Assembly: GCA_029782355.1 (NCBI GenBank)
Contig: JAKOUY010000023.1
Span: 310,001 to 374,000 of the forward strand
Origin: Actinomycetes bacterium
GTDB lineage: Bacteria; Actinomycetota; Acidimicrobiia; Acidimicrobiales; Ilumatobacteraceae
Direction of reading: 5' to 3'
Length of the DNA stretch: 64,000 bases
Each line of letters begins with the position of its first letter. Within the stretch, counting starts at the first letter, position 1. The translations under genes and the position numbers were made by a program. The notes beneath the pieces were generated by a model. It was not told the origin of the DNA. It saw only the letters and a list, made by a program, of their open reading frames with translations, and did not search any database. Shown piece by piece: positions 12,177 through 12,680 of the stretch.

Positions 12177-12680
12177 TCAGGCGGCGAACGGCTTCACCGA
12201 CCCATCGGCGGCGATCAGCACCACCGGCTGACGGGCCCACGTCGACGGGTCGCCGCCCATCCCGGGCGCGTCGGCCGGCATGCCCGGCAGGGCCAGACCG
12301 CGCCCGGTGGGCCGGTCGGCCAGCAGCCGGGCGATGAACTCGGCTGGCACATGGCCCTCGACGGCGTACTCGCCGACGATGGCCGTGTGGCACGAGGCGA
12401 CCGAGTCGGGCACGCCGTGCCGGGCGCGGAACGCGTCGCGCTGGTGGTCCGCCGTCGCGGTGGCCGTGGCGCCGGTGGAGCGCAGGTACCCGACCCACGC
12501 CGTGCAACAGCCTCAACCCGGGTCGGTGTGGACGTCGAGGTGCACGCCGGACAGCACGCCCGGCGAGGCCGATCCCGCCCCGGCGGACGCCGGGGCGGTG
12601 CGGGAATCGGAGCACGCCGCAACCACGGCACCCAGGACGGGCAACGCCAGCAGCTGACGTCGCGTCCAGCCCCCGGCCAT
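12177..12680 (-). CDS. DUF411 metal-binding lipoprotein, probable selenoprotein (in-frame TGA at codon 56)
   Basis: 167-residue reading frame if TGA 12515-12513 is read through. N terminus [20 protein letters not shown] with lipobox VAAC (Cys23) and a twin Arg, so exported, perhaps via Tat. Then [17 protein letters not shown], where DUF411 proteins have the CGCC metal site and the TGA replaces the first Cys. The downstream half is fully DUF411-like: [20 protein letters not shown], then [16 protein letters not shown]411 proteins bind metal (often copper) and sit near copper genes. Reading frame and homology are continuous on both sides of the TGA, a -10 box precedes the ATG, and a SECIS-like hairpin follows the TGA. 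Alternative: a nonsense mutation or base error of TGC. Confidence 0.72.
12480..12500 (-). promoter_or_regulatory. Putative bacterial SECIS hairpin
   Basis: On the mRNA, GCGUGGGU pairs with ACCUGCGC around a CGGGU loop: 8 pairs including two G-U wobbles, 5-nt loop with G in its second position. The loop starts 20 nt after the UGA, inside the window used by bacterial SECIS elements for SelB. It lies in the coding sequence, as bacterial SECIS elements do. Confidence 0.55.
12513..12515 (-). other. In-frame TGA, candidate selenocysteine codon
   Basis: Codon 56 of the DUF411 gene; it aligns with the first Cys of the family CGCC motif and is followed by GCC (Gly-Cys-Cys). One base change from TGC. 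selA, selB, selC and selD are not in this window. Confidence 0.65.

Follow-up and report, generated by a model that had tools for sequence, protein, structure and literature searches.

A DUF411/CopG-like lipoprotein gene with a conserved in-frame TGA that very probably encodes selenocysteine

On the minus strand of the 64,000-nucleotide stretch of DNA analysed here (the window), a frame that otherwise reads as a member of the DUF411 family contains a single internal TGA, and the question raised by this locus is whether that codon ends the protein, is an error, or is read as an amino acid, with selenocysteine (Sec) as the proposed reading. The frame spans positions 12177-12680 and, with the proposed ATG start, encodes 167 residues followed by a stop, the terminator being, in the translation of the window, also a TGA (12177-12179, minus strand). 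The internal TGA (12513-12515, minus strand) is codon 56, in the context PG-U-GCCTAW, and occupies the first position of a CGCC motif, with C58 and C59 (12504-12509, minus strand) forming the remainder of the resulting UGCC metal motif. Upstream of it, a predicted signal peptide extends to the lipobox cysteine C23 (12612-12680, minus strand), which suggests export, and downstream the Pfam DUF411 model (PF04214) matches positions 12258-12401 of the minus strand, including C97-H98, with 85.2 bits (G000:C1:322258-322401, where G000 denotes the window's own genome). A Pfam scan of the whole protein scored 83.1 bits against a cut-off of 27, and the motifs follow one another in the order lipobox C23, DPG-U-GCC, SCHTA, EGHVPA and PGMP...PGM. 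The original prediction had assigned the TGA to the first Cys of CGCC, flanked on either side by sequence typical of the family, and had expected an ordinary gene caller to report a 78-residue fragment; the translation agrees on each point, the fragment being an ORF that starts with GTG after the internal TGA (12177-12413, minus strand, translation table 11). The -10 box that it had placed ahead of the gene was not recovered, as a scan with the sigma-70 consensus only returned no promoter-like site for the DUF411 gene. An Rfam search at the locus gave nothing near a gathering score.

That the codon is maintained is indicated by homologous loci, a check that had been suggested for this locus. 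TGA stands at the same codon in 37 intact loci from 34 genomes of one class, carrying nine family codes, which is more than chance would produce; the class is presumably actinobacterial, perhaps Acidimicrobiia. In the following, 16 of these loci are referred to as the first set, and the 21 obtained from the class search as the later set. Among 61 genomes including the window's own, a Pfam search detected DUF411 in three: the own genome, G036 of the same family, with TGA at the same codon, and G048 of the same order, with TGC. In the family (221 genomes) there were 15 full-length loci in 13 genomes, every one with a single TGA. In the order (397 genomes), TGA copies were present, besides the own genome, in G346 (two) and G209 (one, L121, which belongs to another family than the window's genome), and the DUF411 matches of G048 and G164 had no stop. 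The class (395 genomes) added 21 further intact TGA loci in 20 genomes, together with one TGT locus, and in the phylum (396 genomes) seven genomes besides the own one had strong DUF411 matches, none of them with a stop. Weak partial matches with E above 1e-4 were left out, namely G178 (three internal stops), G191, G365 and G414 in the order, G446, G457, G008, G557, G567 and G570 in the family, and G641, G069 and G749 in the phylum; the class-search locus L150 was left out of the 37-locus count. Loci L039, L069 and L072, which have no internal stop, and L071, which is cut by a contig end, were left out of the alignment (A4) and of the trees. Outside these genome sets, viral contigs scanned for the exact pattern gave no match, a tblastn search of plasmids returned 3445 records, all below 60% identity to the query, and a contig scan with a pattern that fixed Cys at the Sec site found eight loci, Cys in all eight.

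The sequence around the codon behaves as coding sequence on both sides. Over the 12 codons before the TGA, pairwise differences at codon positions 1, 2 and 3 were 0.32, 0.31 and 0.63, and over the 111 codons after it 0.27, 0.25 and 0.55, so that the third position differs most on either side, the pattern that translation both up to and beyond the TGA would leave. All 16 first-set loci have a lipobox cysteine, with A, G or S in front of it, 33-48 residues upstream of the Sec codon, and a looser lipobox pattern is present somewhere upstream in all 21 later ones. In the two loci L055 and L056, the Sec motif reads USCC instead of UGCC.

These data bear directly on the two explanations in which no full-length protein is made from this codon. 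According to the first, the TGA is a true stop, giving an exported peptide of 55 residues and, through the GTG start available after the TGA in the window, a separately made product of the 78-residue ORF. Such a product would be without a signal peptide, and the stretch lying between TGA and GTG contains the cysteines +2 and +3 relative to the TGA, which, like the cysteine at +41 (the equivalent of C97), are Cys in 37 of 37 loci; moreover, the motif and the remaining domain are modelled as one CopG-like fold (see below). We consider termination extremely improbable. According to the second, the codon is really TGC or TGT, each one base away from TGA, and was altered by a sequencing or assembly error, or else the gene is dead. 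Broken copies do occur elsewhere, namely one in two pieces that retains the TGA (L149/L151, G1132:C97) and two N-truncated DUF411 copies without the motif region (L145 and L148). Against this stand the 37 intact loci, two of them inside the one-contig genome G346, with the 111 codons after the TGA open in all 37, and the probability of an error or a pseudogene is practically negligible.

If the codon is decoded as Sec, the dedicated machinery should accompany it, and the lack of selB and selC, combined with a lack of TGA at this site in other homologues, had been named as what would refute the reading. The window's own assembly (3.79 Mb, 98% complete) holds a tRNA-Sec scoring 65.6 bits, above the Rfam cut-off, with the next best match at 44, and ARAGORN confirms it as tRNA-SeC(tca). 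Matches above the respective cut-offs were also obtained for selA (369 bits), for the adjoining selB (263.9 bits plus a C-terminal piece) and for selD (329.3 bits, in its Cys form), and the reading is thus not refuted. The tRNA-Sec gene (G000:C7:458766-458857) is located on a contig other than those of the best selA and selB matches (C4) and of selD (C1). Within the family, tRNA-Sec was found in 13 of 13 TGA carriers against 147 of 221 genomes overall, an association of modest weight, given how common Sec use is in the family. It was also found in six of the nine genomes whose DUF411 match has no stop, and was not found in G209, the carrier of the TGA locus L121, whose assembly is 88% complete with 5% contamination.

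Bacterial Sec insertion further involves a SECIS hairpin, for which the published model, according to PMC13188914, comprises a loop of 3-9 nt, a stem of 4-16 bp and a G in the first two loop bases, located 16-37 nt from the UGA and with a minimum free energy (MFE) of at most -7.5 kcal/mol (Fig. 2 legend of the same source). A SECIS-like hairpin that fits this model is present at 12480-12500 on the minus strand, 20 nt after the UGA, with the stem GCGUGGGU/ACCUGCGC of 8 bp and the 5-nt loop CGGGU (12488-12492) providing the loop G. Its MFE is -9.9 kcal/mol over 21 nt and -11.2 kcal/mol over 33 nt. The relatives fit the model less cleanly, with 21-nt hairpins as weak as -5.5 and 33-nt stretches as weak as -7.1 kcal/mol in some of them, and the 33-nt MFE structure includes the hairpin in 19 of 37 loci. 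In the consensus fold, U-G-G-G-U pairs with A-C-C-U-R plus one closing pair, around a loop C-G-K-G-U that starts after 20 nt.

Synonymous codon choice was compared across the loci. At codons -1, +7, +8 and +10 relative to the TGA, the first 16 loci show abnormally little freedom in it, a fraction of 0 to 0.0005 of random draws being equally extreme, and the stretch after the TGA reads TGG GTC GKG TAC CTR; low synonymous variation was also seen elsewhere, at codons +48 (0) and +40 (0.001). An invariant GGT before the TGA was considered as a further signal in these 16 loci and was dropped because codon -1 varies in the later 21, many of which have GGC, GAC or GGG. The loop motif CGKG occurs in 34 of 37 loci compared to about 12% in synonymous resampling, and the mean hairpin MFE of all 37 loci lies below that of all 300 resamplings; none of 300 synonymous recodings was as stable as the hairpin, whether the first 16, the later 21 or all 37 loci were taken.

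Pairing across loci differs in strength among the sets. Over all 37 loci, 95.9% of the core cells pair, compared to 36-64% when the positions are slid, and covariation as high was reached in 0 of 500 shuffles. The pair 27-43 is G-C in 31 loci, C-G in three, G-U in one, U-G in one and unpaired in one. Of the first 16 loci, 13 have G-C and three have C-G as the outermost core pair, the next core pair is C-G in five, G-C in three and unpaired in eight, and the covariation score was reached by 0 of 500 shuffles; two of the five pairing measures were not above shuffles (177/500 and 135/500). In the later 21 loci alone the pairing percentage holds (2/500 shuffles) and covariation does not stand out (71/500). 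Single stretches of 33-48 nt were not unusually stable relative to dinucleotide shuffles, as seen for the own locus (z -0.10 and 0.15) and for L010 (z 0.85 and -0.77). An unconstrained RNAalifold structure of the first 16 loci was rejected, as it begins upstream of the TGA and contains no pair changed on both sides. Separately, the TGA copies L142, L143 and L144 have a different, shifted downstream hairpin (in L142 a 9-bp stem with the loop UAUAU), which suggests that this gene family has a second type of SECIS.

The machinery and the hairpin also allow the remaining alternative at the level of decoding to be weighed, in which something other than the Sec system, through code reassignment or nonspecific suppression, inserts Trp, Cys or a further amino acid at the TGA. 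In its favour, the DNA directly shows nothing beyond read-through. Nevertheless, TGA also terminates 31 of the 37 TGA-containing genes themselves (14 of 16 in the first set, 17 of 21 in the later), which makes it an ordinary stop in these genomes and speaks against a code change. In addition, the codon aligns with Cys in all 13 Cys homologues of alignment A4, tRNA-Sec accompanies the gene in every carrier of the family, and the hairpin is under synonymous constraint. Reassignment or suppression therefore appears very improbable, and we regard it as very probable that UGA codon 56 of the DUF411 gene encodes selenocysteine. The Sec interpretation of the original prediction is in this way supported by the machinery, by the 37 TGA loci and by a SECIS-like hairpin that it had not used. 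In terms of mechanism, we infer that the codon would be decoded by the SelB/tRNA-Sec system, with the hairpin 20 nt downstream guiding the insertion.

In regard to the relationship between the Sec and Cys forms, a tree of the first 29 proteins united the Sec group in one branch (95/100). In the tree of 51 proteins, the 37 Sec proteins together with the Cys protein L123 formed one branch (95/90) that excluded the remaining 13 Cys proteins, and for this tree the program warned of long branches meeting at the split of the Sec branch. L123 originates from genome G1075, has TGT in place of TGA, and shares the genus code g460 with the TGA-bearing genomes G1166 and G1148. It retains TGGGTCGGGTACCTG, while the closing pair is lost and the 21-nt fold is weakened to -2.2 kcal/mol. 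Judging from sequence comparison, L123 can be read as a reversal from Sec to Cys, the forks within that part of the tree being poorly supported.

What such a protein might do is indicated by its closest structural relative. A sequence search of the PDB with E up to 0.01 gave CopG (6wis/6wje) as the sole distinct match, with an E value of 3.5e-29, and the profile alignment places Sec onto the first Cys of the CopG CGCC. The AlphaFold model, calculated with Cys in place of Sec, has a mean pLDDT of 94.2 and superimposes on CopG with Z 19.9 over 122 residues (rmsd 2.4, 37% identity), followed by glutaredoxin-like structures at Z 6.6 and below. The DUF411 profile, the fold, and the SCHT, GHVP and GMP...PGM motifs are common to both proteins, whereas the protein described here differs from CopG in having Sec for the first Cys of CxCC and a lipoprotein signal, and in its need for a SECIS element and the Sec machinery. 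According to the review PMC7558416, CopG-like proteins bind a tetranuclear copper cluster via the CxCC motif and two methionines, contribute to anaerobic copper resistance and may oxidise Cu(I). Two methionines that do not vary across 29 rows of alignment A4 (positions 92 and 99 in its first row) are candidate ligands only.

Genes surrounding the Sec copies provide a further, uneven indication. Pfam matches among the neighbours include heavy-metal P-type ATPases, multicopper oxidases, CopC-CopD, a DUF305 protein resembling CopM, a MerR regulator and a cation efflux protein. In raw counts over 36 regions, several of which are cut by contig ends, 13 have a metal-resistance gene within 8 kb, and 11 have a multicopper oxidase, CopC-CopD or DUF305/CopM-like gene within the same distance. 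By set, metal genes were found in 12 of 15 first-set regions outside the own genome and in one of 20 later-set regions; in the own window, no metal-resistance gene lies within 8 kb of the DUF411 gene (0/1). Regarding the metal concerned, the P-type ATPase beside L108 scores 566.6 bits, above the cut-off of the copper model TIGR01511, and that beside L121 falls below this cut-off, with a cadmium-type model scoring higher; the neighbouring oxidase, CopC, CopD and CopM-like genes stay below the cut-offs of the corresponding NCBIfam copper models. Since metal genes adjoin only 13 of 36 regions and none is present in the own window, the support for a copper role covers part of the family, and the window's own gene may or may not share it. 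Overall, the DUF411 gene is tied to CopG by sequence and fold, and in part by genomic context. As a separate observation, a DUF1573 protein is encoded beside the Sec gene in L161 (by Pfam match) and L164 (by membership in the same cluster), and DUF1573 is itself a selenoprotein family in the table of PMC13188914.

Neighbours of a different kind occur in the later set, where CcmF, a thioredoxin-like protein, a haem-binding protein and cytochromes c were found in other orders of the class. Together with the thioredoxin-like fold of the protein and with an own window lacking a nearby copper gene, they would suit a selenoprotein with a redox or cytochrome c maturation role instead of a copper one. 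Such a role seems unlikely, as CopG is by far the closest structure, the other cysteines of the motif are Cys in every locus, and the first-set regions outside the own genome mostly have adjoining metal-resistance genes. In the copper-related reading, which we prefer, Sec would replace the first Cys of the CxCC motif that binds the tetranuclear copper cluster in CopG, and the protein, exported as its signal peptide suggests, would most likely bind or redox-cycle copper outside the cytoplasm, with the selenolate as one of the ligands; selenium may offer some advantage over sulfur in this position. Taken as a whole, the statement that the gene encodes an exported, Sec-containing CopG lipoprotein, decoded by SelB and tRNA-Sec under the guidance of the hairpin, and binding or redox-cycling copper, is in our view probably correct. 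The evidence leaves evenly balanced the wider proposal that CopG across one class is a selenoprotein in which Sec ligates a polynuclear copper cluster, with at least one lineage having gone back to Cys and keeping a remnant of its SECIS.

The original prediction had suspected that DUF411 is not listed among selenoprotein families, and a 2026 compilation of 119 families and subfamilies of prokaryotic selenoproteins agrees with this, since DUF411, PF04214 and CopG are absent from the part of it covered here (PMC13188914). The excerpts of PMC9312934 and PMC12013277 likewise contain no Sec form of DUF411 or CopG, DUF411/PF04214 was not found as a selenoprotein in the open-licence PMC literature, and a search there for COG3019 together with selenocysteine led to a paper on another subject, Tat export. 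Among the titles listed by a broader search of the same literature, none deals with a Sec CopG. In NCBIfam 20.0, with E up to 0.001, neither the own Sec protein (P0001) nor its G036 relative matched a family. Selenoproteins linked to metals are known in other families, and the table of PMC13188914 includes the SO_0444 family Cu/Zn efflux transporter, MerT-like proteins, the cation-transporting ATPase E1-E2 and CopZ-family 2Fe-2S proteins, which likewise have Sec in place of Cys. The same source contains the UGSC- and UGC-motif selenoproteins (NF041046; DUF1573), with a similarly short Sec motif, which the own and G036 proteins differ from in matching no NCBIfam 20.0 family. Within the literature covered, the Sec variant of CopG thus appears to be a new and unreported selenoprotein family, as far as sequence allows such an assignment.

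Gene callers that stop at the TGA would truncate these proteins, which could leave a lipoprotein conserved across a whole class unnoticed. Should the copper role prove right, selenium use in these bacteria would be tied to extracytoplasmic copper handling. The Cys protein L123 and the Sec proteins L138 and L139 represent a natural Cys/Sec pair within one genus, in which it could be asked why selenium is used. Finally, the protein may present a natural selenolate ligand in a copper cluster and, if this is true, the genetic code itself would be producing a selenolate-bridged copper site.
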